The notes under the pieces were generated by a model. That model made no database searches. It saw only the letters and a list, made by a program, of their open reading frames with translations, and was not told where the DNA came from. A stretch of DNA of 24,092 nt, from positions 1 to 24,092 of the forward strand of contig NZ_JMLP01000036.1 in assembly GCF_000686805.1 (NCBI RefSeq), written 5' to 3'. Below are positions 3,104 to 18,652 of the stretch, piece after piece. Source of the DNA: Bacillus sp. UNC41MFS5 (GTDB lineage: Bacteria > Bacillota > Bacilli > Bacillales_B > DSM-18226). Both the position numbers and the translations under genes were made by a program. Numbering within the stretch: position 1 is the stretch's first letter; every line of letters starts with the position of its first letter.

Positions 3104-5134
3104 TTATACAGGATAATGGCAGGCAACCAAATGTTCTGAATCCATTGATTTTAGTACCGGTACAACTTTCTTACACAGTTCTGTCGCGGCAGGACAACGC
3201 GGATGAAAACGACAGCCAGAAGGCGGATTGGCTGGTGACGGAACTTCGCCTTCAATGACAATCCTTTCTCTTCTTTTGTTTGGGTCAGCAATCGGAATAG
3301 CGGCCAAAAGTGCCTTTGTATAATGATGAGCAGGATGAAGAAATAATTCATCAGCAGGGGCCACTTCAACCAATTTCCCTAAATACATAACCCCTATCCG
3401 ATTTGAAATATGCCGAACCACATTCAGTCCGTGACCAATGAATAAGTAGGTTAATCCAAGATTATCCTGAAGATCTTGAAAAAGATTAATGATTTGCGAT
3501 TGGACAGATACATCCAATGCGGAAACAGCCTCATCCGCTACAATAAACTGTGGACTTAAAGAGATCGCTCTTGCAATTCCAATCCGCTGCCTCTGGCCGC
3601 CTGAAAATTCATTTGGGTACCGGTCATACCAACTAGGATTGAGTCCAACCAATCGCATAATTTCTAAGACTTTTTCTTTCTTTTCCTTACCCTTTAATGA
3701 TTGGTGTACCCATAGCGGTTCGCCAATTATATCTCCCACTTTCCACCTTGGATTGATCGAGCCATATGGATCCTGAAAAACAACTTGCATATCTGCTTTT
3801 GTTTCTTTTAATTCAGATCCGTTCAGACCGAATAAATTCTTCCCTTGGAACAAGACTTTTCCGCTTGTAGCTTTTTCCAACTGTAATATGACCCGTCCCA
3901 GAGTAGACTTGCCACACCCTGATTCTCCAACCAGTCCAAAGGTTTCTCCTTTTTTAATATCAAATGATACATCGTCAACGGCACGGACATATTTATTCTT
4001 CCTATTCAACATACCTTTTTCAATTGGAAAATACTTTTTTAGGGCCTTAATTTCAAAAAGTGGAGCTTCTTCAGTATGATTTTGTATGCTTAAACTTGTT
4101 TGTTCACCTTCATTGATATAGATGGAGGTTCCTGGATTAGCTGAAAAATGATTATTCGTTATTTCTATTTTTTGTGTGTGCCAGCATGCCACTTTATGAC
4201 CTTCATTTTCCACCAATGAAGGTTCCTCTTTTGTACAAATCTCGGTTGCGTATGGGCATCGAGGATGAAATCGGCAGCCAGATGGTACATCATCTAAGGT
4301 CGGTATGGAACCCTCTATCGAAAATAATCGGCTTCCTTGCCTGCTTTCTAAAGGTACAATCGATTGAAGTAGACCCTTTGTGTATGGATGACGTGGTTGT
4401 TCGAACAATTCAAATACAGATGCCTCTTCTACCACTTGTGCAGAATACATCACAACGATTCGATCCGCCATTTCAGCGGCGATCCCTAGGTCATGTGTAA
4501 TGAGTAGGATTGACATATTAAATTCCTCTTTTAATTCCTGAAGCAACCCAAGAATTTGTGCTTGGGTGGTTACATCCAGTGCCGTTGTAGGTTCATCGGC
4601 AATAAGCAATTCAGGGTCGCAAGCGAGTGCAATCGCAATCATGACACGCTGAAGCATCCCGCCTGAAAACTCATAAGGATATTGCTTCATTCTCAATTCG
4701 GGTTCAGGTATTCCCACCCTCCGCAACAAGCGAATGGCTTTTTCGGCTGCTTCTGATTTAGAAACACTGTTATGTTGAATGATTACCTCCGTAATTTGAT
4801 GACCAATGGTAAATACAGGATCCAAGGCAGACATCGGCTCTTGAAAAACCATGGCTATCTTTTTCCCACGGAGCTCTCTGATCTTTTTTTGCGAAAGCTC
4901 GATCAAGCTTTGACCTTCCAACTGAATGTCTCCATGTGTGATGATTCCATTATTAAAATCGATTAAACGCATAATAGAAAGCGAAGTAATCGTCTTTCCA
5001 CTGCCCGATTCACCAACTAAACATACAATTTCACCTTTATTAATTTGTAAACTGACATTGTTAACAGCGTTTATCATCCCTTTTTTTGTTTTAAATCCGA
5101 CGGATAATTCTTGAATATCTAACAGTTTTGTCAA
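3104..5134 (-). CDS. fused double-ATPase subunit of a peptide-type ABC importer (DppD-DppF like)
   Basis: Energises uptake through the two permeases encoded just upstream. The 676-aa protein is a tandem fusion of two nucleotide-binding domains, as in GsiA/YliA-type subunits. Domain 1: Walker A GESGSGKT (41-48), signature FSGG (156-159), Walker B LLIADE (176-181), switch His about 214. Domain 2: Walker [10 protein letters not shown] (403-411), signature FSGGQ (510-514), Walker B with DEAVSALD instead of the usual DEPVSALD, and GHGL instead of SHDL around the switch His (568). Each half ends in the [10 protein letters not shown] peptide-transporter motif. The start is TTG at 5134, with GGGAGG seven nt upstream. 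It is last in the cluster, 24 bp after the permease gene. Two intact ATP sites seem likely, the second slightly unusual. Confidence 0.95.
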
Positions 5135-5158
5135 CGCGCATCCTCCCTTCGAATTTCC

Positions 5159-6055
5159 TTAATTTCTCGAATGCTTTGGATCCAGCCTGTTCCGGAGTTC
5201 ATCGCCTATTAAATTCACTGAAGTAACTAAAATAGTAATGGCTAACCCTGGAAATGTAACAATCCACCAAGCAACGGAAATATAGGCTCGACCCTGTGAC
5301 AGTAAATAGCCCCAATCTGGAATTTCCTTAATAACACCCAACCCTAGAAAACTAAGACCTGTACCTATCAGAATGCTCGTTCCGACTCCAACGGCGGCCA
5401 TCACGAGAAGGGATGAGAGACAGTTTGGCAGAATATGACGAAAGATAATTTCAAAGTTTGATGTTCCTATCGCTCGAGAGGCATCCACGAAGGGACGGCT
5501 TTTTATGGCAATAACCTGGCTTCTTATGACCCTGGCATATCCAGGAATAGAAGCAATACTTATGGCTAAGATAATATTTCCTAGACTTGCACCAAGAGCT
5601 GAAGAAATAGCAATAGCTAGGAGAATATTAGGAATGGTCATCAAAACATCTATGAATCTCATTAAAATGGTGTCGATAACCCCTCCAGTGTATCCTGCAA
5701 TCAAACCGATTATGGTACCTGCCAATCCCCCCAATAGAACAGCTGCCACTCCCGTTAATAAGGATTGTCTTGCTCCATAAATAATTAAACTGAATATGTC
5801 ACGTCCGAATTGATCGGTTCCAAAAATATGAGATGAACTTGGGAAATTCATGATTAACTGAGTATTCATATCAGTAGGTGAGTAGGGTGCAATCCATTGT
5901 GGAAAAATGGCACAACAGATTAAAAAAACAATCATAAGCAATGAAAGAAAAACAATGATGTTGGACCACTTGAATCTCTTACCTGTATAACCCATTTTCT
6001 TTTTAGCAGCAGTTTGAGTTAATGGCTCTCTTACGGCACTAGAATTGGTTATCAT
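5159..6055 (-). CDS. ABC importer permease, DppC/OppC type
   Basis: Membrane subunit of the peptide/organic-solute importer. Start chosen at MITNSSAVREP (298 aa) because GAGGTG sits six nt upstream; longer in-frame starts would overlap the preceding permease gene. One membrane helix near residues 35-55 is followed by the OppC-type N-terminal region (APYSPTDMNT, FGTDQFGRD) and the binding-protein-dependent permease domain. The EAA-loop region reads DASRAIGTSNFEIIFRHILPN-like and contacts the ATPase. About six hydrophobic segments are visible and the length is normal for DppC. It lies 37 bp after the partner permease and 24 bp before the ATPase gene, so the three are almost certainly co-transcribed. 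Confidence 0.94.
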   Translation of the reverse strand: MITNSSAVREPLTQTAAKKKMGYTGKRFKWSNIIVFLSLLMIVFLICCAIFPQWIAPYSPTDMNTQLIMNFPSSSHIFGTDQFGRDIFSLIIYGARQSLLTGVAAVLLGGLAGTIIGLIAGYTGGVIDTILMRFIDVLMTIPNILLAIAISSALGASLGNIILAISIASIPGYARVIRSQVIAIKSRPFVDASRAIGTSNFEIIFRHILPNCLSSLLVMAAVGVGTSILIGTGLSFLGLGVIKEIPDWGYLLSQGRAYISVAWWIVTFPGLAITILVTSVNLIGDELRNRLDPKHSRN

Positions 6056-6092
6056 ATTTTTCACCTCACTCATAATACTTGTGTTCCAAAGA

Positions 6093-7022
6093 TTATTTAA
6101 TCGTAGTTTTTCGTACTCGAGGATCAATGTACGAATAAGAAACATCCACAAAGAAATTAACAAGAACGTACATAACGGCCGCCACTAAAATGACTCCTTG
6201 TATCATTGGAATATCCTTTTGATTAATGGCATCTACTACCACTCTTCCAATACCTTGTCTGGAAAATACCGTTTCTGTCACAACAGAGCCCGCTAGTAAC
6301 TCTCCGATCAAAATTCCTAAAATGGTAATAGCCGGTAAAAGCGCATTGCGTAAAATGTGCTGGAACATAATGATTTTTTCTGTAAGCCCTTTTGCCCTAA
6401 GCGTTACGACAAACTGTTCATTAATGATTTCTAGAACACTATTACGGACGATTCTTGTTAGTAATCCGGATTGGGTGATCCCAAGACAAAGAGCAGGAAG
6501 AACGAGCTGATTAATGTTTCCATTCCCGATTGCTGGGAACCAATTTAAGTTGACGGAAAAGATAAGAATCAAAAGAATTCCGAACCAAAATGTCGGCATA
6601 GAGATACTAAATAAACTACTGACTCTAACCATATAGTCCAGCCAGCTATTTTGATAAATGGCCGATAACACTCCAAGTAAGATCCCAACAGCAATGGCGA
6701 TCAATCCGCTTGCAAGAGTAAGAGATACAGTTGCAGAGATATTCATCATTAACTTATCCATCACTGGTTGATTATCTACAAAGGATTCACCCAAATCTCC
6801 TGTAAGCACGCCTGTTATATACTTAATATATTGCTCACCTGCTGATTGGTCTAAGCCCAGTCTATTCTGCAAATCTTCTACTCTCTCTTCGCTCATGCCT
6901 TCTCCTCCAATCATCCGGGCAGCATCGCCCGGCAATACATGAAGGAGAAAGAAGACGAATGTAACTGAGCCAAGGATGACGATAAGGGAGACCATTATTC
7001 TTTTTAAAAGAAATTTAAGCAT
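6093..7022 (-). CDS. ABC importer permease, DppB/OppB type
   Basis: Second membrane subunit (309 aa). It starts with the typical OppB/DppB N-terminus (KRIMVSLIVILGSVTFVFFLLHVLPGD pattern), has about six hydrophobic segments, and an EAA-loop region VTLRAKGLTEKIIMFQHIL followed by RNALLPAITILG. AAAGGAGA lies eight nt before the ATG. The gene sits 24 bp after the solute-binding lipoprotein gene. Membership of the DppB family is clear, but the family does not fix the substrate. The neighbouring monooxygenase and CoA-transferase genes argue for a small organic acid or thioether rather than a nutritional peptide. Confidence 0.94.
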   Translation of the reverse strand: MLKFLLKRIMVSLIVILGSVTFVFFLLHVLPGDAARMIGGEGMSEERVEDLQNRLGLDQSAGEQYIKYITGVLTGDLGESFVDNQPVMDKLMMNISATVSLTLASGLIAIAVGILLGVLSAIYQNSWLDYMVRVSSLFSISMPTFWFGILLILIFSVNLNWFPAIGNGNINQLVLPALCLGITQSGLLTRIVRNSVLEIINEQFVVTLRAKGLTEKIIMFQHILRNALLPAITILGILIGELLAGSVVTETVFSRQGIGRVVVDAINQKDIPMIQGVILVAAVMYVLVNFFVDVSYSYIDPRVRKTTIK

Positions 7023-7046
7023 ACCTATCTCTCCTTTTCGTACAAA

Positions 7047-8687
7047 TTATTGTTGAATCCATGTATCATAAAAATTAGGAAATCCCGGTGAATCAAATCG
7101 AATTCCTTTAACTTCTTTTACTGTTGCAAATGAGTAATTAAATAAATAAGTAGGAATGGAATAAACATTTTCAATGATGTATTCCTGTACCTTTTTATAG
7201 ATTTCCTGACGTTTCTGCGGATCTTGCTCTAAGTACCCTTGTTCTAACCATTCATCAAGTTCAGGTACATTGGCACGTGAAGGTGTAGCTAATCCATAGG
7301 GGCCTTTCGTTGAGAAAATCAATCGCATAACATCTGGATCCCCATAAAATTGACTGGCCGCAAACATATCATAATCTCCATCAAATCTTCGTTTATCATA
7401 TGCCCCCGCTGATAATGAGACGATGTTTAATTGAATACCTGCATCTTTTAACTGTTTTTGTAAGACGGTTATTAAATCAATCCGTTTTTCACGATTTCCT
7501 TGCGTATCAATTAAATCAATGGTTAATGGTTTCCCTTCCTTCTCCCAAAGGCCTTTAGATCCTTTTTTCCAGCCTGCTTCTTTTAGTTGTTTGGCCGTTT
7601 CGTCTACATCCTGCTTCCAGGAGTTTTCTACTTTATCATCGTAGCCAAACAAGTTTTTTGTAATGGGTGACCAAGCCTGTTCTGAAGTGCCCAGATAAAT
7701 GGTGTCGACTGCAGATTTAATATCTAGTGCCGAGCGTACCGCTTTTCTCACTCTTACATCGTTCCAAGGCTCTTTGCTAGGATTTAAATACAAGGAAAAA
7801 TTAATTTGACTCAATTGTGTTTCAAGCACATTAAATTGGTTATCCTTTTTTAAGGCTACTAGGTTTTGAGGTGGAATAATGTCAGCCGCATATACTTGTT
7901 TGCTCTGTAGAACCCCAACACGGGTAGCTTCTTCCGGTACAAATTGAATCGTAATTTTATCCAAGTATGCAGGCCCTTTGTGACCTGCATTTTCCGGCGC
8001 CCAATTGTAGTCTTCATTTTTCACCAATTCAACCTGAGTTCCCAGAGTAAATTTCTTTAATTTAAATGGTCCCGTTCCTACTGGATGCTGCGGAAATGCA
8101 TCTCCATATTTCTTAACAGCAGCAGGGGATACCATTCCTAAATCTGCTTTTGCAGCATTACTTAAAAACGGTGCAAAAGGCGTAGAAAAATTAATTTTCA
8201 CGGTAAACTCATCAATGACTTCAGAAGACTCATAGGGACCTAGCGCATTGATTGAATTGCTTGCTTTTGTTGCCGGGTCTATAATTCGATCAAAATTAAA
8301 TTTAACTGCTTCTGCATTGAATGGTGTTCCATCATGGAAGGTTACATCTTCTCGCAGCTTGAATGTGTAGCTTTTTTTATCTTCAGAAATTTCCCAAGAG
8401 GTTGCAAGCCATGGTTTAATGGTCCCATCCTCTAATTCAACTACTAAGCTATCATAAAGGGATCTCATAACACGCCCATTTTGGGCATTCCCAGATTTAT
8501 GAGCGTCCAGATTATCATTTGTCACAGTACCACCAAGTGCCCATTTCAATTCTCCACCTGGTGTGATTTCTCCCTCGGTCGCATTTTTGCTAGTTTCTTC
8601 ACTAGTGGATTTTGCAGCCGAGCATCCTGCTAAAACGATCATAATCGTTATTAAGGCTATTAATAGGTAATTCAGTGACTTTTTCAC
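7047..8687 (-). CDS. solute-binding lipoprotein of the ABC importer (SBP family 5)
   Basis: Extracellular substrate receptor of the importer. The start is taken as GTG at 8687 (546 aa) because GAGGG precedes it and this gives a proper lipoprotein signal: MKKSLNYLL, a hydrophobic core, then lipobox LAGC with Cys22 as the lipidated residue. An upstream in-frame GTG at 8771 would bury the signal peptide. Family 5 features: GGTVTNDNLDAHKS near the mature N-terminus, the LATSWEISEDKKSYTFKLRE block and HDGTPFNAEAVKFNFDR, which are hallmarks of DppA/OppA/NikA-type receptors. It is 80 bp downstream of the monooxygenase gene. The ligand cannot be read from sequence; the operon context suggests an organosulfur or related acid. 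Confidence 0.94.
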   Translation of the reverse strand: MKKSLNYLLIALITIMIVLAGCSAAKSTSEETSKNATEGEITPGGELKWALGGTVTNDNLDAHKSGNAQNGRVMRSLYDSLVVELEDGTIKPWLATSWEISEDKKSYTFKLREDVTFHDGTPFNAEAVKFNFDRIIDPATKASNSINALGPYESSEVIDEFTVKINFSTPFAPFLSNAAKADLGMVSPAAVKKYGDAFPQHPVGTGPFKLKKFTLGTQVELVKNEDYNWAPENAGHKGPAYLDKITIQFVPEEATRVGVLQSKQVYAADIIPPQNLVALKKDNQFNVLETQLSQINFSLYLNPSKEPWNDVRVRKAVRSALDIKSAVDTIYLGTSEQAWSPITKNLFGYDDKVENSWKQDVDETAKQLKEAGWKKGSKGLWEKEGKPLTIDLIDTQGNREKRIDLITVLQKQLKDAGIQLNIVSLSAGAYDKRRFDGDYDMFAASQFYGDPDVMRLIFSTKGPYGLATPSRANVPELDEWLEQGYLEQDPQKRQEIYKKVQEYIIENVYSIPTYLFNYSFATVKEVKGIRFDSPGFPNFYDTWIQQ

Positions 8688-8767
8688 ATTACTTCCCTCA
8701 TTTCTTTGTTCATTTATATAAAAAAATTCTATCTGCCAGCTTTTAAATCTCATTATTTCATCTATTT

Positions 8768-10096
8768 TCACAACCGGTGTGATAGTTTCCTTGCATAACG
8801 GTTCACTGGAATATCTAAACCTAAATGTCCACGCAGAGTATCATCCTCATATTGACTTCTAAATAACCCTCGTTCTTGTAAAATAGGGACTACACGCTCA
8901 ACGAATTCAGGCAGTCCTTTTGGTGTTGCAGCTTGAATGATAAATCCATCTGCCGCCTCTTCTTCATACCATTGTTGAATAAGGTCCGCTACTTTCTCTG
9001 GCGTCCCAACAAATTGTCCTTTCGGTGTTGCAAAATGAAGGGCAACTTGACGTAACGTTAAATTTCGTTCTCTTGCCATTCTTTTAATTTTGTCAGACGC
9101 ACTCCGACTACTTTCTCCAATATCGCCTAAATGCGGAAACGGTTCATCCAGAGGATATTGAGTGAAATCATGGTCATCAAAGGGTCTTCCTAATGCATGA
9201 AGGGCTTTTTCAATGGTAACAAGACTAGCAATCTCTTCATGTTTACGATCAGCTTCTTCTTGAGTATCACCAATGATGGGATTAATACCTGGCAAAATGG
9301 AGATATTGTCAGGATTTCTTCCAAATGCGCGGACTCTTTTTTTGATATCTGCATAGTATTGTTTCAAGTCCTCAAAACTTCCGCCGCCTGCAAAAATAGC
9401 ATCTGCATGTTTGGCTGCAAAGTTTCTGCCTTCTTCAGATTTTCCAGCTTGAAAAATAACGGGTTGCCCCTGTTTGGACCGAGCTATATTTAATGGACCT
9501 TTAACGGAAAAAAACTCTCCATTATGATTGAGCGTATGTAACTTTTTTTTATCAAAAAAGACCCCTGATTCTTTATCATAGACAAAGGCATCATCTTCCC
9601 ATGAATCCCATAACCCTTTTGTGACTTCAAGGAACTCTTCTGCCCTTTTGTATCGTACAGCATGAGGGGGATGGGCCTTTTTATTGTAATTATCCGCAGA
9701 TCCCGAAAGCCATGAAGTTACCACATTCCACCCAGCTCTCCCATGGCTGATATGATCCAGTGAAGCAAGCTGTCTAGCCAGAGTGTATGGCTCACTATAG
9801 CTCGCAGTAATGGTCGCAACCAATCCTATATGGTTTGTTACTGAAGCAAGTGCTGACAAAATAGTGACTGGTTCAAACCTATTTAAATAATGGGGGCTGG
9901 AATTTTCATTGATTGAAACACTATCCGCAATAAAAACAAAATCAAGTTTCCCCTCTTCTGCCTTTTGTGCCTGTTCCTTATAGAATTTGAAATTCGTACT
10001 TGCATTAGGTAAGGAATCCGGATGTCTCCAGTCTCCCCAGCCTCCTCCAACACCATGAATCATCGCTCCTAATTTTAATGTTCTTTGTTTTGCCAT
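8768..10096 (-). CDS. FMN-dependent monooxygenase, NtaA/SnaA/DszA (luciferase-like) family, copy 1
   Basis: Uses reduced FMN and O2 to oxidise a small organic substrate. The family includes nitrilotriacetate, dibenzothiophene-sulfone and dimethyl-sulfide monooxygenases and Bacillus CmoJ (YtnJ), which cleaves S-(2-succino)cysteine derivatives. The 442-aa length is typical. Family blocks: [14 protein letters not shown] near residues 14-27, [57 protein letters not shown], and C-terminal [13 protein letters not shown] strong GGAGGAG precedes the ATG. It lies between the crotonase (119 bp upstream) and the importer genes, linking import to oxidation. It relies on a flavin reductase encoded elsewhere; none is present here. 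It is roughly three quarters identical by eye to the product at 14925-16247. Confidence 0.93.
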
Positions 10097-10215
10097 CGTG
10101 ACTCCTCCATTCTAGAAAGATCTAGATTTGTAAATAAAAACTATAAGTATTAACATCGAAATACTTGGTTTTATGAAAGAACTGGCTTGCTTTCGAATCA
10201 ATCATCAAAGGAAAC

Positions 10216-10956
10216 CTATTTTGTAACATAATCCGTAAACCTTTGTTTAAAGTCCCCCATTCGAACTGAGTTCCTTGTGAGTTCATGCGTACCATGAAAC
10301 GGTTCATTACTTAGTTCTTTTAAGGTTTGGATGGCATGAGCCGGAACCCGATTCAAGGTTTTGGCCCAATTGTTTGACACATCGTGTGCTTCCTTTAGAT
10401 CCTCACATATTTCATGCACTAATCCAAAATCCTTCGCCATTTGGGCATCAATCTTCTTGTTTAACAATGTCACATATCGAGCCCTTGAAGCACCAATTTC
10501 ATTTATTAAGCGCTGGGTACCCAAGATCAAGCCAAATTGCGGACCTGGAAACCGAAAAACGGCTGAAGGTGTTCCGATTCTTAGGTCGCAAGAAAGTGCT
10601 AAATCCGCACCTGCTCCAAATGCATATCCATTGATCACCGCAATAGTGGGAATGTGGAAATGTGCTAACATGTCTAATAAAATCGATACATCCGTAAAGA
10701 ACTGTGCTGCTTCTTCATTCGTTAAGGATTGGATATATTTCACATCCACTCCCGAACTGAAGGCTTTCGTTACTTCACTGCTTAAAATCAGGGTACCTAT
10801 ATCTTCCCTGCCGCGAATGATTTCTAAGTACTTTCTCAAATCTTTGTATAAGATATTATTTATGGCGTTCAAATTAAGCGGACTGTTGATGAAAAGATGT
10901 GCTGTTTTTCTCTGGAAATCCTGATGATCCGTGATTACTAATTTAACTGTTTCCAT
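10216..10956 (-). CDS. atypical enoyl-CoA hydratase/isomerase (crotonase) family protein
   Basis: Crotonase-fold protein of 246 aa, expected to act on a CoA thioester made by the CoA-transferase of the same operon. The two oxyanion-hole regions are visible: AFSSGVD (65-71) and GYAFGAGADLALSCD (110-124), then FPGPQFGLILGTQRL (136-150). In canonical hydratases, Glu of GGGCELA and Glu of the following QPE motif are catalytic. Here the aligned residues are Asp118 and Gln140, so simple hydration is unlikely. Other crotonase chemistries (isomerase, hydrolase, dehalogenase-like or elimination) are possible. It starts 17 bp after the small NifX-like gene. AAAGGTG before the ATG is a modest ribosome binding site. 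The family is secure; the reaction is not known. Confidence 0.88.
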   Translation of the reverse strand: METVKLVITDHQDFQRKTAHLFINSPLNLNAINNILYKDLRKYLEIIRGREDIGTLILSSEVTKAFSSGVDVKYIQSLTNEEAAQFFTDVSILLDMLAHFHIPTIAVINGYAFGAGADLALSCDLRIGTPSAVFRFPGPQFGLILGTQRLINEIGASRARYVTLLNKKIDAQMAKDFGLVHEICEDLKEAHDVSNNWAKTLNRVPAHAIQTLKELSNEPFHGTHELTRNSVRMGDFKQRFTDYVTK

Positions 10957-10973
10957 CCTGACACCTTTCCTGC

Positions 10974-11351
10974 TTAGCCTTGTGGCACGTTACTTGGCTC
11001 GATTTCGTTCGCAGAAAGTTCTGTGGTTATTTCTAGTCCATGGTTATCAATTAACTGTTTTAATTCTGAAAAACTAGTTCCTGGTTGTACTCTGTAATAA
11101 ACAAATTCCTCTTTTTGTGCAGCTTCATATGACAAGTCACAAAGCATTTTCGGCGGAGCACATAAAAGATTGATGTTTCTTTCATTCAGCCACCTAATGA
11201 CGGCTCCTCTTTTTCCAGTTTGGAACTGTGTTGCCGGATTTTCAAAATCCTGTCGTTCACCTGTCTCAACATCGTATAAACGAATAATGTCGCCTTCAAT
11301 AATTGGTACAATCATTTCGTTTTCTCCTGATAATGTCATGGCTAATTTCAT
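10974..11351 (-). CDS. small protein with NifX/NifB-like fold (predicted)
   Basis: 125-aa cytosolic protein. I do not recognise it confidently. The pattern suggests the dinitrogenase iron-molybdenum-cofactor-binding fold: MKLAMTLSGEN at the start, then IIRLYDVETGE followed by ENPA, GKRGAVIRWLNERNINLLCA, and VYYRVQPGTSFSELKQLI. This matches the strand/helix order of NifX-type proteins but lacks the usual Gly/His-rich loop. Two cysteines (CAPPKMLC) could bind something. GAGGGA lies six nt before the ATG, and the gene sits 27 bp after the CoA-transferase and 17 bp before the crotonase, so it is a true operon member. A regulatory, scaffold or accessory role is as likely as an enzymatic one. Confidence 0.75.
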   Translation of the reverse strand: MKLAMTLSGENEMIVPIIEGDIIRLYDVETGERQDFENPATQFQTGKRGAVIRWLNERNINLLCAPPKMLCDLSYEAAQKEEFVYYRVQPGTSFSELKQLIDNHGLEITTELSANEIEPSNVPQG

Positions 11352-11378
11352 GGGAATTCCCTCTTCTCCTTCGCTTTT

Positions 11379-12575
11379 TTATCTTCCTGCCTCTGTTGGA
11401 TGAAGCCATTCTTCAATAACCTGTTCATTATGCTGCCCTAACTTTGGAGGCATCCGATAAATCTCAAATTCATAGTTTGTCATTTTCACTGGAAATCCTA
11501 CGGACGTTGTTTGTTCTCCATTTGGTAATTCCATTGTTTCCAAAATATTCAGTGATTTCGTAATAGGGCTTGCCAATGCTTCTGCGAAATTATTAACCGG
11601 AGCGGCGGGAACCCCTCTTCTGTCAAATTCAGCAATCCATTCCACCGCAGGTTTCGTTACAAAGACTTGCTCCAATATCGTTTTTAGCTCTTTTTGATTT
11701 TGAGCACGTAGGGACTGGGTGGCGAACCTCGGATCCTCGTATAAATCCGTTACATCCGCCGCTTCACACACTTGATACCACAGCTTATCATTTCCTGCAG
11801 CAATCACAAATGGCTGATCCTTTCCTTGATAGGCTTGATAAGGCGCATTTCTAGGATGTGCACTTCCTAATCGTTTTGGAGGTACCCCTTTTCCATAAAA
11901 TTCACTTGTTTGCAGTGCTGAAATACCAAGTACACTGCCAAGCATAGAACAATCAATGTACGCTCCCTTTCCTCCTTGCTTTACTTTTAAAATCGAAGCG
12001 GTAATCGAATACGCTGCATACAAACCGACGGCAAAGTCTGCAATTGGAACTCCGCATTTTACAGGTGGCCCTTCCTCCTCGCCGGTCACACTCATGAGTC
12101 CACTAAAGGCTTGAATGGTGACGTCAAAGGCTCCTTTTTTGGCAAAGGGGCCTTCTTGCCCATAACCTGAAATCGAGCAATAAACCAATTTGGGATGTTC
12201 TTGAGACAAACCGCTGTAGTGTAGTCCGAATTTTTCTAATACACCAGGCCGGTAATTTTCAACAATCACATCTGCTTTTAAACAAAGCTGCTTTAATACG
12301 TTCAGATCTTCCTGATTTTTAAAATCGATTGAGACGCTACGCTTATTTCTGTTTAACGAAGAAAAGTTTGCACTAAATTCCTCGTATTGTGAATTTTCAA
12401 TAAACGGAGGCCAGTTTCGCATCCCATCCCCGCCTTCTGGTCTCTCAATTTTAATCACATCTGCTCCAAGATCCGCTAATAGCATGCCGGTATATGGTCC
12501 AGCCGCAATTTGGCCAAATTCAAGGACTCGCACCCCAGTTAGTGGTTTCGTTTGATTCTGTTTCCATTTCTCCAA
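11379..12575 (-). CDS. class III CoA-transferase, CaiB/BaiF family
   Basis: Moves CoA from a donor thioester to a carboxylic acid, here probably the acid produced by the oxygenases. Length 398 aa, standard for the family. Diagnostic N-terminus PLTGVRVLEFGQIAAGPYTG and ADLGADVIKIERPEGGD (11-50), KRSVSIDF, VENYRPGVLEKFGL, and the catalytic aspartate region GAFDVTIQAFSGLMSVTG with Asp151. The start is TTG at 12575, with GTGGAG eight nt upstream. It is the first gene of the eight-gene cluster, so its 5' region should carry the operon promoter. Known relatives include the 3-sulfinopropionate CoA-transferase (Act) of thiodipropionate degraders, which fits the mercapto-acid dioxygenase nearby, but the acyl specificity is inferred, not seen. 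Confidence 0.93.
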   Translation of the reverse strand: MEKWKQNQTKPLTGVRVLEFGQIAAGPYTGMLLADLGADVIKIERPEGGDGMRNWPPFIENSQYEEFSANFSSLNRNKRSVSIDFKNQEDLNVLKQLCLKADVIVENYRPGVLEKFGLHYSGLSQEHPKLVYCSISGYGQEGPFAKKGAFDVTIQAFSGLMSVTGEEEGPPVKCGVPIADFAVGLYAAYSITASILKVKQGGKGAYIDCSMLGSVLGISALQTSEFYGKGVPPKRLGSAHPRNAPYQAYQGKDQPFVIAAGNDKLWYQVCEAADVTDLYEDPRFATQSLRAQNQKELKTILEQVFVTKPAVEWIAEFDRRGVPAAPVNNFAEALASPITKSLNILETMELPNGEQTTSVGFPVKMTNYEFEIYRMPPKLGQHNEQVIEEWLHPTEAGR

Positions 12576-12680
12576 ATAACCAGCTCCACTTTTTGTTTAT
12601 TAATATTTTCATGCGCACAGATCCTTTATAAACCCTTTATTCTGATTGAATTACTCGGTTTAAAGTTAGTATATATCACG

Positions 12681-12695
12681 ATAGTCCCCAAGTAT
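12681..12695. promoter_or_regulatory. possible LysR-type box upstream of the CoA-transferase operon
   Basis: The minus strand reads ATACTTGGGGACTAT, i.e. ATA-N9-TAT containing T-N11-A, the loose LysR consensus. It lies about 105 nt before the operon start, with TATACT just downstream as a possible -10 and no good -35, as is common for LysR-activated promoters. The dyad is only three bp per arm, so this is weak. The remainder of 12576-12856 holds only the repeat/terminator listed next. Confidence 0.25.
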
Positions 12696-12752
12696 AATTG
12701 AAAAATGGAAATCGTTCATTCAAAAAAATTGAAGTGTATACATGACTGTATC

Positions 12753-12778
12753 AAAAAAAAAAACGGTGTCAGGCACCG
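12753..12778 (-). terminator. terminator of the LysR gene made from a dispersed repeat
   Basis: The minus strand reads CGGTGCCTGACACCG (12764-12778), a near-palindrome, followed directly by 11 T residues (12753-12763). This is a compact intrinsic terminator about 80 bp past the LysR stop codon. The hairpin is one of three GGTGTCAGGCACC copies in the window (others at 20243 and 23487), so a mobile or dispersed repeat seems to serve as terminator here. Confidence 0.75.
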
Positions 12779-12856
12779 CCCTACAAAAGCGAGTGTCAAA
12801 ATAAACGATATCAAACTTGTATTTTCTGTAAATGCGAAACACCATTTGAAACACTC

Positions 12857-13732
12857 TTATACACTTTCTTTAATTGTCGTAATTAATCTTTGTACCGCCT
12901 TACTATTTTGAATGCCCTTTGCCTTTCTTACAATCCCCGTAACAACGCCAATTTCTAAATCCACAATCCTCCTTTTTACCGTCCCTTTTGGCAGGGTGCC
13001 AACGATGATATCCGGGATAACGGCTATTCCTAGGCCAGCCTGGACATATTCCTTTAAAGCAGACATACTGTTTACTTCTAATCCAATTTGAGGAGTAACA
13101 CCCGCTTTTAACAATGACATTTCTAAATGGATGCGATAATTACAAACAAACCCACTTAACAATAGCCGTTCATTATTAAAATCTGATAAAAAAATCTCCT
13201 TTTTCTCTGCAAATGGATGGCGGTCGGATATCAATATCGATACATCTTCCGTCAGTAACGGCTCAAATGTAATCGTGTGATCTAGTTCAGGTGTGTTACA
13301 AATCGCCAGGTCCAGTTCCCCTTCTTTAATCATTTCCGTTAATCGATTGGAGTTGTTAATTTCGATACTCATTTGGACCTTTGGATATTCGTCACAAAAA
13401 GGAGCCAAAATGTTTGGTAACCGATAAATCGCCATAGGTTCAATGGCACCGACCTTGATTTTACCCGTTTCTCCATTCAGCCATTCATCCATTGAGCTTT
13501 GTACGTACTCTAAATCATTAAGCAGTATAGAAGACTTCTCCAAAAAGACCCTGCCTGCCTCTGTTAAACAAATTTTTCTTCCTCGTTCAAATAACTTAAC
13601 ACCCAAATCCATTTCCAATTTTTGAATTTGCATCGTAACCGTTGACTGTACATAATTTAGTGCCTCAGCTGCTTTTTGAAAACTTCCAAAACGGGCAATC
13701 GTTTGGAATGTTTTGACTGCTTTCAAATCCAT
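12857..13732 (-). CDS. LysR-family transcriptional regulator
   Basis: DNA-binding regulator, probably of the CoA-transferase/monooxygenase/importer operon lying directly downstream on the same strand and perhaps of the divergent dioxygenase gene. N-terminal winged helix-turn-helix (about 1-60: MDLKAVKTFQTIARFGSFQKAAEALNY, QSTVTMQIQKLE, LFERGRKICLTEAGR), then the periplasmic-binding-like effector domain (about 88-291), with typical GAIEPMAIYRLP, GELDLAIC and VQAGLGIAVIP. Start chosen at MDLKAVK (291 aa), the usual LysR start; a TTG three codons earlier lies too close to AGGGGTGA. The effector is unknown. A strong promoter at 13905-13933 and a structured, terminator-bearing leader precede it. 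Confidence 0.93.
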   Translation of the reverse strand: MDLKAVKTFQTIARFGSFQKAAEALNYVQSTVTMQIQKLEMDLGVKLFERGRKICLTEAGRVFLEKSSILLNDLEYVQSSMDEWLNGETGKIKVGAIEPMAIYRLPNILAPFCDEYPKVQMSIEINNSNRLTEMIKEGELDLAICNTPELDHTITFEPLLTEDVSILISDRHPFAEKKEIFLSDFNNERLLLSGFVCNYRIHLEMSLLKAGVTPQIGLEVNSMSALKEYVQAGLGIAVIPDIIVGTLPKGTVKRRIVDLEIGVVTGIVRKAKGIQNSKAVQRLITTIKESV

Positions 13733-13763
13733 ATTTATCAATTCACCCCTAGAAGATTCTACT

Positions 13764-13898
13764 AAGAAAAAAGCGCAAAAAAGCCTATGAATCTAGGAAG
13801 ATTTCATAGGCTTTTCATTCATTTCAGCCCATAAGACATCTACCCTATTTATTAAGGGCCTCTAGTTGTCTAGCGGGCTTTATTACTTAATATTGTTA
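13764..13898 (-). ncRNA. structured leader with terminator and antiterminator (candidate riboswitch/attenuator)
   Basis: RNA expected from about 13898 to the T-tract at 13764-13780. Nested stem: AGCCC/GGGCT (13875-13879 with 13826-13830), AGACA/TGTCT (13867-13871 with 13834-13838), CTA/TAG, then CCCT/AGGG (13855-13858 with 13843-13846) with a GAGG bulge. After it comes a perfect 11-bp terminator stem (13803-13813 with 13781-13791) followed by TTTTTTGCGCTTTTTT. The segment TTATGGGCT (13826-13834), which includes the 3' arm of the outer stem, can instead pair for 9 bp (two G-U) with AGCCTATGA in the terminator. The three helices are thus mutually exclusive, the architecture of a transcription-attenuating riboswitch; outer-stem formation would favour termination. 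I cannot match it to T-box, SAM, purine, preQ1, fluoride or other classes I know. A small independent RNA is the alternative. Confidence 0.65.
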
Positions 13899-13904
13899 CT
13901 GTTT

Positions 13905-13933
13905 ACTATATTTTGACTTTTCCGATATGTCAA
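13905..13933 (-). promoter_or_regulatory. sigma-A promoter of the LysR leader
   Basis: Minus strand TTGACA (13928-13933), 17-nt spacer and TATAGT (13905-13910). Near-consensus; the start point is predicted around 13898, immediately before the structured leader. Confidence 0.8.
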
Positions 13934-13961
13934 GTTGGTTTTATCTATATTTTTGAAATCA

Positions 13962-13978
13962 ATTCATTTTTTTTGAAT
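13962..13978. promoter_or_regulatory. candidate LysR operator between the divergent genes
   Basis: Inverted repeat ATTCA-N7-TGAAT containing T-N11-A. It lies 28 bp upstream of the -35 of the LysR promoter and about 110 bp before the dioxygenase start, the usual position for a LysR autoregulatory site. The centre is a T-run, so chance is possible. Confidence 0.35.
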
Positions 13979-14087
13979 GAACTCTTCATTTCTTTCCATT
14001 TTACACTCCTTTATTTTCATTTTATGATCATTATAAACCTTATTATTCTGATTTTTATACTAAGAATTAAACAGGAGGCTCAAAAAA

Positions 14088-14681
14088 ATGGTCAATATTA
14101 ACCCTTTTCAAATTTTCGAAAAATCAGTAAGAAATGTGCTGCAGGAGACCAGTTCGGAAAAAGAGATTGTCACTAAACTTAAACCACACTTCCAATCATT
14201 TATTGAATCAGAAGGATTAGTACCTGATAGTTACAAAATACCGGCAGAGGAAAAGTATCGTCAATATTTACTGTACAGGCCAGAGGATGAAGCATTTTCG
14301 ATTGTAGCTTTTGTTTGGGGGCCTGGGCAAACCGCTCCGATACATGATCATTTGGTCTGGGGACTGGTGGGTATTTATGAAGGTGCCATTGAAGAAACAA
14401 GATATCGTGAAAAACAAAATGCTCCAGATGAAGCTGGCCTTCATTTGGATTTGGTGGATACAGTCATCGCGAAAAAACATGATATTTCTTTTGTCTACCC
14501 GCCAAACGCGGATATTCACAGTGTTCGTAATCCTTTTGACGAAATGGCTATCACTATTCATATTTATGGAACCGATATTGGAAAACAGAATCGTCACTCC
14601 TATCAAAAAGAACCGTATCAAATAAAACCGATTGTAACCCCACATTATAACAAAGTCCCGGTCTATTCCAATCAGGGTTAA
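14088..14681 (+). CDS. thiol dioxygenase of the cysteine dioxygenase family, 3-mercaptopropionate dioxygenase-like
   Basis: Non-haem iron cupin expected to add O2 to the sulfur of a small thiol, giving a sulfinic acid. Length 197 aa. The core YRQYLLYR, FSIVAFVWGPGQ, HDHLVWGLVG closely follows what I remember of Pseudomonas 3-mercaptopropionate dioxygenase (YQQYLL, FSVVSFVWGPGQ, HDHRVWGLIG). Iron ligands: His86, His88 and His144. The Ser-His-Tyr triad of that enzyme appears as Thr156-His158-Tyr160, the substrate-side Gln is Gln59, and Arg169 corresponds to its carboxylate-binding Arg168. This favours a mercapto-acid over cysteine. AGGAGG lies eight nt before the ATG. The gene is divergent from the LysR gene and ends in a strong terminator. 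Exact substrate is inferred. Confidence 0.9.
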   Translation: MVNINPFQIFEKSVRNVLQETSSEKEIVTKLKPHFQSFIESEGLVPDSYKIPAEEKYRQYLLYRPEDEAFSIVAFVWGPGQTAPIHDHLVWGLVGIYEGAIEETRYREKQNAPDEAGLHLDLVDTVIAKKHDISFVYPPNADIHSVRNPFDEMAITIHIYGTDIGKQNRHSYQKEPYQIKPIVTPHYNKVPVYSNQG

Positions 14682-14717
14682 AAAACGGTTAGGTTAGTTA
14701 AATAACAAATTAAAAAT

Positions 14718-14770
14718 GCTGTTCCATTAAAGAAAGGCCTGCCGCCTTATCTTATGGAACAGCTTTTTCT
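14718..14770 (+). terminator. terminator of the thiol dioxygenase gene
   Basis: 10-bp outer stem GCTGTTCCAT/ATGGAACAGC (14718-14727 with 14754-14763), nested inner stem AAGGC/GCCTT, then TTTTTCTTG on the plus strand, 37 bp past the stop codon. Confidence 0.88.
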
Positions 14771-14828
14771 TGTATATGTGATGTATATCTAATAGGTCTT
14801 AAGCAGGACCTATTACCCTGCGGCCAAC

Positions 14829-14868
14829 CAAAAAAACACACGAAACGATGTAAGAAATTTCGTGTGTT
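14829..14868 (-). terminator. terminator of the second monooxygenase gene
   Basis: 11-bp stem AACACACGAAA/TTTCGTGTGTT (14835-14845 with 14858-14868), followed on the minus strand by a run of T (14829-14836). It lies about 60 bp past the stop at 14925 and faces the plus-strand terminator. Between the two is an 8-bp inverted repeat (AATAGGTC/GACCTATT, 14791-14814) of unknown role. Confidence 0.88.
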
Positions 14869-14924
14869 ATCGTACTATTTTATATTAGAAGAAAGAAATC
14901 GTCGTTCATTCATGTAATTTTATA

Positions 14925-16247
14925 TTACTGTAGAACCTTTTTCGAATTACGGTTTTCGGGAACTTTTAATCCAAGATGTCCCCGCAATGTATCATGTTCG
15001 TATTCTGTACGGAATAATCCCCGGTCCTGCAGGATGGGAACCACTCGATCCACAAATTCAGGCAATCCTTTTGGAGTCGAGGCTCCCACAATGAATCCAT
15101 CAGCGGCGTTGTCTTCAAGCCACTCTTGGATTAAGTCAGCTACTCTTTCAGGAGTTCCAACGAATTCCCCTTTAGGTGTTGAAAATTCCAGAGCCACTTG
15201 ACGTAAGGTTAAGTTTCTTTCTTTCGCGCTTCTTTTAATAGTTTCGGATGTACCGCGATGGCTATCACTTCCTAAATCCCCTAGATCTGGGAATGGTTCA
15301 TCCACTGGATATTGGGTGAAGTCGTGATCATCAAAAGGTCTGCCCAACGCATGCAGCGCCTTATCGATTGTAACAAGGTTGGCGATTTCCTGATGCTTGC
15401 GGTCCGCATCCTCCTGCGTATCACCAATCACCGGAACGATACCGGGTAAGATGAACAATTCATCTGGGTTTCGTCCAAACTCACGTGCTCTTCTCTTCAC
15501 ATCTGCATAATAAGCTTGAGCCTCTTCCTTTGAATGATGTCCAGCGAAAATGGCATCTGCGTTTTTGGCGGCAAAGTCTCTGCCGCTTTCTGATACACCC
15601 GCCTGAAAAATGACCGGTTGACCTTGTTTCGAACGAGAAATATTTAACGGGCCCTTAACAGAAAAATACGTCCCTTTATGATTTAACGTATGCAGCTTTT
15701 CCTTATCAAAAAAGACACCTGAATCTTTGTCATAGACAAACGCATCATCTTCCCAGGAATCCCATAACCCCTTTGTTACCTCCAAAAATTCCTGTGCAAT
15801 CTTATAACGTTCCGAGTGGGAAGGGTGGCGGTCCCGGCTGTAATTATCCGCTGAACCTGACAACCAGGATGTCACCACATTCCATCCTGCTCTGCCATCA
15901 CTGATGTGATCCAATGAAGCGAATTGTCTTGCTGCTGTATATGGCTCGCTATAGCTGACAGTTACCGTACCGACTAATCCAATATGATGAGAATTACCGG
16001 CAATCGCTGATAAAATGGTCATCGGCTCGAAACGGTTCAAATAATGGGGACTGGAATTTTCATTAATTGAAACACTATCTGCAATAAAAACAAAATCCAA
16101 TTTTCCTTCTTCTGCTTTTTGCGCTTGCTGCCTATAAAAATCCCAGTTTGTACTTGCATTTGGCAGAGAATCAGGATGTCTCCAGTCTCCCCATCCACCA
16201 CCTACTCCATGAATCCAAGCACCTAAAACAATGTTCTTCTTCGCCAT
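14925..16247 (-). CDS. FMN-dependent monooxygenase, NtaA/SnaA/DszA (luciferase-like) family, copy 2
   Basis: 440-aa paralogue of the product at 8768-10096, sharing nearly all conserved blocks ([88 protein letters not shown]). Differences concentrate around residues 78-95 ([21 protein letters not shown] against [21 protein letters not shown]), the [10 protein letters not shown] segment and the C-terminal tail, consistent with a related but not identical substrate. GAGGAGGAG precedes the ATG. It is a single-gene unit with its own promoter and terminator, separated from the importer cluster by the regulator and the dioxygenase. Like copy 1, it needs a separate flavin reductase. Confidence 0.93.
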
Positions 16248-16437: not shown

Positions 16438-16467
16438 ATTATAGGATTCCAAAGAGAAATTTGTAAA
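16438..16467 (-). promoter_or_regulatory. promoter of monooxygenase copy 2
   Basis: Minus strand TTTACA (16462-16467), 18-nt spacer, TATAAT (16438-16443). The leader to the start codon is about 185 nt long. Confidence 0.55.
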
Positions 16468-16489
16468 ATTGAAAAAAATGAATAGTAAT

Positions 16490-16671
16490 TTCAAATATAT
16501 TGATAGTAAACGACTTGAATGATCGGATTCCAGTGGGTGGTCTAGGCACACGTTTTTTTCCGGCAACAAAGGCACAGCCGAAATAAATGCTGCCGATATT
16601 CACTAATGCTTCGACCAGTTTTACTTTTAACAGAGATATAAGTGATTGGATGGGTGCTCCTCTACTCCTGA
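16490..16671 (-). other. gene-free stretch with possible coding relic and truncated terminator
   Basis: Just past the PspA stop (16672) the minus strand shows AGAGGAGCACC, matching the 5' arm of the terminator that ends the other PspA copy (AGAGAAGCACC at 17931-17942), but the 3' arm is absent. Beyond it one minus-strand frame stays open without a start codon and reads protein-like (LVEALVNIGSIYFGCAFVAG, then KKRVPRPPTG). This may be the tail of a lost gene. A hairpin CGGCA/TGCCG with inner GGC/GCC covers 16561-16595 but has no T-tail in the needed direction. Confidence 0.3.
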
Positions 16672-17334
16672 TTAAAATGCGGCAGCTTTTTCATTCTTTA
16701 ATTTTTCAAGTTCCTTATTGAGTTCGTCATCGTTCACATATGCCATATCAAGCTGAGCTAATGGGCCCGCAAACTGATTGCCTGCTTGTACTTCTGCTTC
16801 CATCATTAAAATGCGATCTTCGGCATGGGCCACTCCTCTTGCAATATCATCCGTATTAAAGGAAACTGTTGCTTTTTGAATTTGTTTCATTGACTGTGCA
16901 ACATTCGCACGTGAAGCAAGCAAGATTTTCTTTTGCTGCAGTTGGTTATACTTTTCCTTCAGCTGGTTCAATTTTTCGATGAGGATTTGTGTTTGCCCCT
17001 TAAGCGACGCTAATTGCTCCTGATAGAGATGTAACTGCTTTTCATGGTTGAGCTTTTCCTGCACGGCAAGTTTGGCCATCTGCTCATCACCTTGTTCAAT
17101 AGCCAGTTTCGCCTGCCGAGTGCGCTTGTCCACTAAGGATTTGACTTCAGAAATAAGGGCCTCTTGTTTTTTCTCTACGAAAATTTGTCTTGCTAAAGCT
17201 TTCTGACCTTTGACGATTTCTTGTTCCATTTCCCTCGAATACTCATTTAGCATCGCAATCGGATCTTCGATTCCATCTAATAATCCATTAATATCCGCCT
17301 TTGCAATCGTCTTTAATCGTTTAAAAATACCCAT
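16672..17334 (-). CDS. PspA/IM30-family membrane-stress protein, copy B
   Basis: Membrane-associated coiled-coil protein of the phage-shock/Vipp1 (ESCRT-III-like) family that binds and stabilises stressed membranes. Start chosen at MGIFKRLK (220 aa), the family N-terminus, with GGAG ten nt upstream; an in-frame ATG three codons earlier lies right on the ribosome binding site. The N-terminal amphipathic helix (about 1-22, MGIFKRLKTIAKADINGLLD) and DPIAMLNEYSREMEQEI are classic PspA. Long coiled coil about 25-185, with the conserved ASRANVAQSMKQIQKATVSF region. The upstream membrane-protein gene ends one base before the start codon, so translation is probably coupled. It is a paralogue of the product at 17974-18651. 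Its downstream terminator looks truncated. Confidence 0.94.
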   Translation of the reverse strand: MGIFKRLKTIAKADINGLLDGIEDPIAMLNEYSREMEQEIVKGQKALARQIFVEKKQEALISEVKSLVDKRTRQAKLAIEQGDEQMAKLAVQEKLNHEKQLHLYQEQLASLKGQTQILIEKLNQLKEKYNQLQQKKILLASRANVAQSMKQIQKATVSFNTDDIARGVAHAEDRILMMEAEVQAGNQFAGPLAQLDMAYVNDDELNKELEKLKNEKAAAF

Positions 17335-17335
17335 T

Positions 17336-17746
17336 TTATACATTCTCCTTTTTTGTTAAAAGATTTTTTTCCCATTGATCTAATACACTTGCATTTTGGC
17401 TTGTTACCGGAATTTGTGAACCTGCCACAGAGGTGTTAATAAACTGTTTCATAGAAGAAGCTTTTGACTTCTTTCTAAGCCATCTTATTAATAGAACCAA
17501 AGCAGCTAGTCCAAGGATTAAGAAAAGCCAAGGGAATCCTCCGCCATGGTGAGCGCCATTCATCATCCCGTGGCCGCCGCTGCCAAAACCGCCGCGGTGT
17601 CCCATCATTCCACCAGGAACATGTCCATGAGGACCTCTAGCAAAAGCACTGCTCCCTCCTAGTAAAAAATGCAGTACGTTGATGACGAGTACCGTAGAGG
17701 CAACAATGACACCCCAGAAAATGCCCATTTTCACTTTTGTATTCAT
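17336..17746 (-). CDS. His/Gly-rich two-helix membrane protein, copy B
   Basis: 136-aa protein of unknown function. A first hydrophobic helix (about 8-31) ends in SSAFARG, which also resembles a signal-peptidase site, followed by a Gly/His/Met-rich segment (RGPHGHVPGGMMGHRGGF, about 37-68), a second helix (about 71-90), basic RWLRKKSK, and a cytosolic tail ending DQWEKNLLTKKENV. The His/Met-rich loop could bind metal or be a sensor segment facing outside; that is inference. The stop is one base from the PspA start. The same pairing occurs in the duplicate at 18653-19057, so the two products probably work together, this one perhaps tethering PspA. GGGAGA stands before the ATG. Confidence 0.88.
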   Translation of the reverse strand: MNTKVKMGIFWGVIVASTVLVINVLHFLLGGSSAFARGPHGHVPGGMMGHRGGFGSGGHGMMNGAHHGGGFPWLFLILGLAALVLLIRWLRKKSKASSMKQFINTSVAGSQIPVTSQNASVLDQWEKNLLTKKENV

Positions 17747-17795
17747 CTCGTTTATCTCCCTTCGTAATCTGATGAAATGAATATTAATTGAGTTT

Positions 17796-17815: not shown

Positions 17816-17848
17816 GGGAGCCTATTTTTAAAATCTATCAATTTTTTT

Positions 17849-17877: not shown

Positions 17878-17923
17878 AATGAGACTTGTGGTTACCACCA
17901 GAACCATCCCTATGGTTTCCTCC

Positions 17924-17966: not shown

Positions 17967-17973
17967 CCTTCAA

Positions 17974-18651: not shown

Positions 18652-18652
18652 G

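Follow-up and report, generated by a model that had tools for sequence, protein, structure and literature searches.

Fresh and marine waters are said to contain 3-mercaptopropionate as their most abundant thiol (PMC12947264, citing earlier work). In the articles cited here, activation with CoA and desulfination by Acd, an acyl-CoA-dehydrogenase-like enzyme, are described only for two betaproteobacteria (PMC5373536, PMC6370202). The cluster of Advenella mimigardefordensis DPN7 has the order LysR, CoA-transferase III, Acd, Mdo, AhpD and TctC; Mdo makes 3-sulfinopropionate, SucCD activates it with CoA, and Acd gives propionyl-CoA and sulfite (PMC5373536). In Variovorax paradoxus TBEA6 the class III transferase Act is responsible for CoA activation (PMC6370202). 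CmoJ (YtnJ) of B. subtilis, an enzyme of S-alkylcysteine salvage, uses flavin in a Pummerer-type reaction that cuts a C-S bond in S-alkylcysteine sulfoxides (PMC10863075). Proteobacterial clusters such as 3mdo-tst of P. protegens combine a thiol dioxygenase (TDO) with a rhodanese. Loss of 3mdo modestly raised extracellular 3-mercaptopropionate in this species (1670 versus 1457 pg per optical density unit at 4 h), and loss of the neighboring tst had no significant effect (PMC12947264). Here we compare these systems with a locus of Bacillus sp. UNC41MFS5 (assembly GCF_000686805.1, contig NZ_JMLP01000036.1). The whole stretch analyzed, the window, comprises 24,092 nt, and the locus spans 3104-16247.

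We give a probability of roughly 0.5 to the reading that this locus encodes a LysR-controlled system for organosulfur carboxylic acids, a variant of the 3-mercaptopropionate/3-sulfinopropionyl-CoA route in which a crotonase replaces the desulfinase. The system would use the sulfur, and probably also the carbon, of such acids. As in the pathway of A. mimigardefordensis and V. paradoxus, and as in loci L023 and L025 of our comparison (L numbers denote loci, G numbers genomes), genes for a LysR protein, a class III CoA-transferase and a TDO of the 3-mercaptopropionate dioxygenase (3MDO) group are clustered. In contrast to this pathway, the window has a crotonase lacking the catalytic glutamates and no Acd match, and adds an ABC importer, flavin monooxygenases and a NifX-fold protein. 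We speak of a variant and not of a member of the route because Acd is missing. The features of the locus are as follows.

3104..5134, minus strand: fused two-domain ATPase of the OppD-OppF type, ABC importer (family match; 84% identical in L052/L053)
5159..6163, minus strand: OppC-type permease (family match; start uncertain, overlaps OppB)
6093..7022, minus strand: OppB-type permease (family match)
7047..8771, minus strand: family-5 solute-binding lipoprotein (best NCBIfam model TIGR04028, 286.5 of 468.5 bits, under the cut-off)
8768..10096, minus strand: CmoJ1, flavin mononucleotide (FMN) monooxygenase of the NtaA/DmoA type, predicted to cleave C-S bonds (TIGR03860; CmoJ of L052-L054 81-83% identical)
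10216..10956, minus strand: crotonase of the GAGAD/FPG subfamily, predicted stand-in for the desulfinase (PDB alignment, homologues, AlphaFold model)
10974..11351, minus strand: small protein of NifX/MTH1175 fold, 125 aa (AlphaFold fold match)
11379..12575, minus strand: class III CoA-transferase (CoA_transf_3, 393 bits)
12690..12737, minus strand: regulatory element ahead of the CoA-transferase operon (weight matrix, 44.8 bits)
12857..13741, minus strand: LysR-type regulator (family match)
13774..13885, minus strand: conserved structured leader with terminator ahead of lysR, candidate attenuator (conservation and folding)
13905..13933, minus strand: predicted lysR promoter TTGACA-17-TATAGT (consensus match alone; in the whole scan such sites were no commoner than in shuffled sequences)
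13959..14006, plus strand: regulatory element ahead of the dioxygenase gene (weight matrix, 43.9 bits)
14088..14681, plus strand: TDO of the 3MDO group (CDO_I, PDB matches, active-site residues)
14925..16247, minus strand: CmoJ2, NtaA/DmoA-type FMN monooxygenase (78% identical to CmoJ1)
16461..16508, minus strand: regulatory element ahead of CmoJ2 (weight matrix, 33.3 bits)

All named genes are open frames with family matches at these positions, so the gene list of the original prediction, which had been made from the sequence without database searches, was correct. Profile searches assigned the CoA-transferase to CoA_transf_3, the crotonase to ECH_1, the regulator to LysR and the TDO to CDO_I. 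The CoA-transferase heads a minus-strand run that continues with the NifX-like gene, the crotonase, CmoJ1, the solute-binding protein, OppB, OppC and the fused OppDF ATPase. Upstream of it lie lysR (minus strand), the TDO gene (plus strand) and CmoJ2 (minus strand), and the layout is that of two divergent units and a separate CmoJ2 unit.

The four best PDB matches of the TDO all belonged to the 3MDO group (best E 4e-26). The Fe ligands His86, His88 and His144 and also Arg169 were kept in 14 of 14 aligned rows. Arg169 corresponds to Arg168 of Av3MDO, which binds the substrate carboxylate (PMC8050391), and its retention disfavored a cysteine dioxygenase proper. The active-site residues suggest that the window TDO oxidizes a mercapto-acid to the sulfinate. 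These residues, and similar clusters of the Acd type (L023, L025), back the analogy to 3-mercaptopropionate degradation that the original prediction had drawn.

The crotonase shares the fold and the ECH_1 domain of its superfamily and differs from it by the replacement of both catalytic glutamates: in a PDB alignment to 9ula, the two hydratase glutamates are replaced by Asp118 and Gly138. An ordinary enoyl-CoA hydratase was rejected for this reason. When 7993 candidates were scored, 1509 matched the subfamily at E ≤ 1e-20. All of the best 120 of these 1509 homologues had Asp and Gly at the two sites; they were the top matches of a profile built from the subfamily, and the figure describes this subfamily and not crotonases at large. 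Arg126, Pro137-Gly138, Phe141-Gly142 and Arg239 were invariant in the same 120 sequences. The reference in this comparison was what we take to be the sequence of the rat hydratase. The AlphaFold model (mean predicted local distance difference test score, pLDDT, 92.5) fitted best, among the 50 solved structures listed as matches, to 3isa, a putative enoyl-CoA hydratase/isomerase of Bordetella (template modeling score, TM, 0.89).

The distribution of the genes was analyzed in 20 distinct loci with a NifX-like gene (the window, L001-L004, L009, L048-L061). TDO, CoA-transferase and a crotonase of the same subfamily were all present in nine of them (the window, L001-L004, L009, L048, L049, L051). 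Ten of the other 11 lacked all three within 8 kb, and L050 had a crotonase at the contig end. We concluded that the three genes are inherited as a block, since all three were found in 9 of 20 loci and none in 10 others. An LLM-family monooxygenase (SsuD- or CmoJ-type) was encoded within 8 kb in 18 of the 20 loci, the exceptions being L050 and L051. Thus, the check proposed with the original prediction, whether CoA-transferase, NifX-like and crotonase genes recur beside such monooxygenases and the dioxygenase in other Bacillaceae, had a positive outcome. In the genome of L050 (G011) the CoA-transferase and TDO genes are located at the start of another contig (L064). In the version of L050/L051/L064 the NifX-like gene adjoins an additional CoA-transferase and a crotonase of another kind, followed by the FPG crotonase, the CoA-transferase and the TDO, with no flavin monooxygenase in view; L051 also encodes a MaoC-like protein and a PF03601 (YeiH-type) membrane protein, and L050 a TRAP transporter.

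By tblastn the trio was also found on plasmids of Bradyrhizobium guangxiense (L010), Cupriavidus campinensis (L014) and Polaromonas P1-6 (L024, with a broken crotonase). The crotonase of the Polaromonas plasmid (8531-9306) lies in two frames, by decay of the copy or by a sequencing error. Diversity guided the choice of 21 of 62 plasmid TDO records (L009, L010, L014, L016-L033), and L009, L010 and L014 were chosen also for a NifX or CoA-transferase gene found earlier. A total of 26 TDO loci was compared. A CoA-transferase was present in 11, together with Acd in two (Diaphorobacter L023 and Paraburkholderia phenoliruptrix L025) and with the FPG crotonase in nine; L030 was of another kind. Acd (taken as ≥50% identity to the enzymes of L023 and L025) and the FPG crotonase occurred together in 0 of the 26 TDO loci. 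In these counts the TDO of L014, hidden by an overlapping frame, was taken from a separate comparison, the crotonase of L024 was counted by similarity only, and the Acd and CoA-transferase pair of L025 lies about 5 kb from the TDO. The Acd of L023 scored 659 bits against the curated cut-off of 600 (NF042439). None of the 18 genomes of NifX-bearing relatives had an Acd above this cut-off (best 326 bits), and the genome of the window was judged by analogy to them. The trio was present in 8 of these 18 genomes (G001-G004, G196, G288, G378 and, on two contigs, G011). No Acd-like match was found in the window by tblastn. The canonical Acd pathway was therefore rejected for the window and for the 18 relatives' genomes. 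The earlier proposal that the crotonase could replace the desulfinase has gained comparative support from the mutual exclusion and from the lack of Acd above the cut-off; the release of sulfur by the crotonase itself we infer.

In the other 14 of the 26 TDO loci a multi-rhodanese gene adjoins the TDO; an SsuD-type gene is present in 12 of these, and CmoJ also in L021 and L029. Most of these clusters share TDO and LysR, an ABC importer and an LLM monooxygenase with the window; they differ in that a multi-rhodanese follows the TDO, while CoA-transferase and crotonase accompany the TDO of the window. Since this is the commonest TDO arrangement and SsuABC/SsuD-type front ends also occur in the relatives of the window, the locus might serve sulfur scavenging: the monooxygenases would free the sulfur, the TDO would trim cysteine or another thiol, and CoA-transferase and crotonase would handle the sulfur-free carbon skeleton. 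We regard this as very unlikely, since it leaves unexplained both that the trio comes and goes jointly with an exchanged or absent monooxygenase and that Acd and crotonase exclude each other.

A TDO match was present in 12 of 397 Bacillales genomes. Among the seven strongest, the FPG crotonase adjoined in five (G001, G196, G288, G378, G324), G011 was split over contigs, and G309 had no FPG crotonase. The weaker matches (105-118 bits; L065-L068) had other surroundings, with the FPG crotonase in 0 of 4, and the weakest was found in G262 (48 bits). A second order-wide TDO search (299 genomes) shared part of its genomes with the first.

A common regulation is suggested by an element of about 48 bp, which consists of the dyad TTCA-N7-TGAA followed by TTTWTCAATTATACAA. 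Seven relatives have two copies per locus, one ahead of the TDO gene (or the first gene of the TDO unit) and one ahead of the CoA-transferase gene. A weight matrix was built from these 14 copies (L001-L004, L009, L048, L049), which had been collected with patterns set up by visual inspection that included the window; the window itself was left out of training. Three strong sites were found in the window (33.3-44.8 bits), the next best scored 3.5 bits, and the maximum in 60 order-1 simulated sequences was 12.4 bits. Because the three sites are so far above both values, 3104-16247 looks like one regulon, and the LysR protein encoded between the units is presumably the regulator acting on the elements. 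In five of six whole genomes the perfect pattern occurred only at this locus, with two copies each; in the sixth, the two copies had two mismatches. With up to two mismatches, 36 further sites were found elsewhere in the six genomes, compared to 16 for the backward control pattern, so the regulon may have further members. The genes could also be chance neighbors without a common function, for which nothing was found except that the front end differs among loci. This is hardly credible: the grouping is kept in nine loci, the trio occurs in another phylum, gene order is conserved in relatives, and the regulatory element is shared and present three times in the window. Chance was thus rejected.

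The leader between the lysR promoter and lysR has a conserved GCCCACTAGACAWCTAGAGG...ATGGGC element and a conserved terminator (L001 7301-7411, L002 7443-7582, L003 7470-7601, L009 12455-12595, L004 4761-4900). For the window region 13755-13905 a fold z of -4.7 was calculated. The 3' arm of the leader, AUGGGCU, could pair with the 5' arm of the terminator in the window and most relatives, more poorly in L003 and L004, and this alternative pairing could make the leader a candidate for an attenuator- or riboswitch-like element. The consensus fold backed just a small hairpin and the terminator. A known riboswitch ahead of lysR was rejected, since Rfam gave no match at gathering and two weak matches at chance level (E up to 5). 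The sequence core of the leader was found in 1 of 397 genomes, there at this locus. L003 carries an S-adenosylmethionine (SAM) riboswitch at 6326-6416 (minus strand), near the TDO end of the locus.

Since the trio occurs without Acd, the simplest reading is the same flow as in the 3-mercaptopropionate route with a different last enzyme. The Opp-type importer would bring in a thioether-type acid. CmoJ1 and CmoJ2, judging from their family, would cut a C-S bond with reduced flavin and O2. Their product would be a short mercapto-acid or its sulfinate, the mercapto-acid most likely being 3-mercaptopropionate. The TDO would convert the thiol to the sulfinate, and the CoA-transferase would put CoA on it; 3-sulfinopropionate resembles succinate, which relatives of this enzyme handle. 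The glutamate-less crotonase may then free the sulfur from the CoA ester, the task of Acd elsewhere. We infer the substrate, the order of steps and the chemistry of the crotonase from sequence comparison. The interpretation given in the original prediction was largely right and is partly supported by these results.

Several observations weigh against this route. The loci are not a random sample, as they were found via NifX, TDO or CoA-transferase similarity. The trio of L051 is not accompanied by an LLM monooxygenase, L062 has the TDO alone, and the NifX-like protein has no explained role. Other acyl-CoA-dehydrogenase-fold genes lie near the trio or the TDO in L003, L048, L049 and L063. In L063 (G324; 9626-15144) TDO and FPG crotonase occur with a carboxylase, an HMG-CoA-lyase-like protein and an acyl-CoA dehydrogenase, without CoA-transferase. 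This dehydrogenase scored 290 bits to Acd (cut-off 600) and slightly weakens the exclusion argument. The gene set of L063 also raises the question of another way to the CoA ester. Crotonases stabilize an alpha-carbanion or enolate; loss of SO2 from the beta carbon would be atypical chemistry that the oxyanion hole does not aid. The reaction may be an elimination that gives acryloyl-CoA or a water-assisted substitution that gives 3-hydroxypropionyl-CoA, or the substrate may carry the sulfinyl group on the alpha carbon.

The TDO itself also departs from 3MDO: Gln62 is replaced by Arg in the window, and Ser155 by Thr in the six Bacillota rows of the alignment and by Gly in L051. These positions, and an identity of the window TDO of 28-32% to four proteobacterial TDOs, would suit an alpha-mercapto-acid as substrate (e.g., mercaptoacetate or 2-mercaptopropionate), with the crotonase releasing SO2 from an alpha-sulfinyl-CoA much as CO2 is released by decarboxylating crotonases. 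Such a reaction would be the easiest desulfination for a crotonase, with a stabilized product enolate. However, the TDO retains the carboxylate-binding Arg of 3MDO, and the crotonase-linked TDO of L010 is 52-54% identical to the Acd-linked TDOs (all from Proteobacteria), whose substrate should be 3-mercaptopropionate. We therefore consider an alpha-mercapto-acid quite unlikely.

Further objections come from the CoA-transferase, which is 35-37% identical to the Acd-linked enzymes of L023 and L025. In the tree it falls into a clade of 12 rows (support 100/98) apart from the Acd-linked enzymes; the tree has uneven branch lengths, and several inner forks of this clade are not settled. This clade also holds enzymes encoded beside Rieske oxygenases without TDO (L011, L013) and one beside an LLM monooxygenase in Rhodococcus (L015); this monooxygenase has the sulfone monooxygenase SfnG as best model (203 of 383 bits). 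A further member, L012, lies in a phosphonate locus, where no crotonase was matched. In this comparison the loci were matched against window proteins only. The CoA-transferases of L011 (59%) and L015 (54%) are closer to that of the window than the proteobacterial TDO-linked ones (51-53%), which suggests that CoA-transferase and crotonase form a module used with several oxygenases and untied from the TDO. Tentatively, and with less confidence than in the route itself, we propose that GAGAD/FPG crotonases traveling with a class III CoA-transferase may represent another type of sulfinyl-CoA desulfinase, unrelated to the first (or a sulfur-eliminating lyase). Members would occur in Bacillota, Alpha- and Betaproteobacteria and Actinomycetota, where the sulfinate would come from one of several oxygenases: a thiol dioxygenase, a Rieske oxygenase or a sulfone-cleaving LLM monooxygenase. 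The CoA-transferase of the Peribacillus plasmid locus L009 (13676-14865) is annotated as two pieces, due to decay of the copy or a sequencing error.

In V. paradoxus TBEA6, deletions of crotonase homologues block growth on thiodipropionate and not on 3-sulfinopropionate, and the CoA ester of thiodipropionate stabilizes Ech-20 (PMC6370202). Because these homologues act upstream, on thiodipropionate, a reverse order of steps is a serious rival: the CoA-transferase would activate the thioether acid, the crotonase would beta-eliminate the thiol, and the TDO would then oxidize the freed thiol for its sulfur. A crotonase is suited to beta-eliminate a thiol from a 3-thio-acyl-CoA, and in L011, L013 and L015 no TDO was detected beside CoA-transferase and FPG crotonase. 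In V. paradoxus, however, CoA activation and desulfination are still carried out by Act and Acd of the same cluster (PMC6370202). A product 3-sulfinopropionate would also still need a desulfinase, which the 18 relatives' genomes lack by the Acd cut-off, and the exclusion between Acd and FPG crotonase fits replacement better than an upstream role. We hold the reverse order to be unlikely.

The front end of the locus is freely exchangeable, consisting of Opp and CmoJ or of Ssu and SsuD, or is missing. CmoJ1 scored 563.7 bits to TIGR03860 (cut-off 279.7), and CmoJ2 was judged by its identity to CmoJ1. The closest PDB match of both is B. subtilis YtnJ (567 bits for CmoJ1, 570 bits for CmoJ2). In contrast to CmoJ salvage, the sulfoxidase CmoO, the N-acetyltransferase and the deacetylase were not among the 19 window proteins scanned, and the partners in the window are TDO, CoA-transferase and crotonase. 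A flavin reductase was not found among these 19 proteins either. The window also differs from the Ssu alkanesulfonate system by having an Opp-type importer and CmoJ-type enzymes and not SsuABC/SsuD. L001-L004, L009, L048 and L049 have Ssu-type importer genes and an SsuD-type monooxygenase, which scored below the alkanesulfonate monooxygenase cut-off. L052 and L053 have an Opp set 79-84% identical to that of the window and a CmoJ 81% identical, adjoining the NifX-like gene, with TDO, CoA-transferase and crotonase all not in view. L053 and L054 have a pyridoxal-phosphate enzyme of Cys/Met metabolism in the same neighborhood as the NifX-like gene, a sulfur context. Alkanesulfonates as the sole theme were disfavored because the front end swaps. 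Two Novosphingobium plasmids (L021, L029) carry TDO-rhodanese-SsuD clusters with a CmoJ 59-60% identical to that of the window, a combination of TDO and CmoJ in another phylum.

The TDO unit of L048 starts with a DszC/SfnB-type protein (3319-4500, minus strand) between the element and the TDO gene. Its best models scored 287.9 and 236.8 bits, both below cut-off, and it reached just 55 bits to Acd. The DszC/SfnB type is a sulfur monooxygenase family with acyl-CoA-dehydrogenase fold. Relatives of this protein are encoded in L049 and in L003 (15328-16452). The gene is likely to provide a thioether-oxidizing step which the window lacks; its place in the unit would fit conversion of a thioether to a sulfoxide or sulfone before the LLM enzyme cuts, and it slightly favors a sulfone/sulfinate reading.

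The NifX-like protein had no match in Pfam (E ≤ 0.001), NCBIfam or PDB sequences. Its AlphaFold model (pLDDT 85.8) showed the NifX/MTH1175 fold (2re2, TM 0.72, E 3.6e-6), with further matches to ORP, TM1290 and NifX (9ian, TM 0.59, E 0.04). The protein thus belongs to NifX/NafY/MTH1175 (PF02579) by fold and not by Pfam match. Within the sensitivity of the search, 19 other relatives were found in 5.8 billion proteins, and the protein has one invariant Cys, Cys71. The gene was present in 15 of 397 genomes of the order, which were drawn from a larger group.

A search of the open-access literature found nothing that joins desulfinase, crotonase and sulfinate, and we noticed no description of this gene set there. 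If the proposed route holds true, Bacillaceae gain a route to sulfur of the 3-mercaptopropionate type, a large unnamed crotonase subfamily receives a function, and C-S cleavage on CoA esters gains a new chemistry.

Outside the locus, 16672-19057 of the window comprises a PspA-like gene in two tandem copies, resembling a duplication, and encodes a small protein rich in Gly and His that has a membrane-type segment. The region 20247-23288 encodes an exporter of the RND (AcrB) type in a genome of Gram-positive type. At its two edges the window holds one end of a 16S rRNA gene (1-69) and a 5S rRNA gene (23970-24086), so that the whole region lies between rRNA genes.

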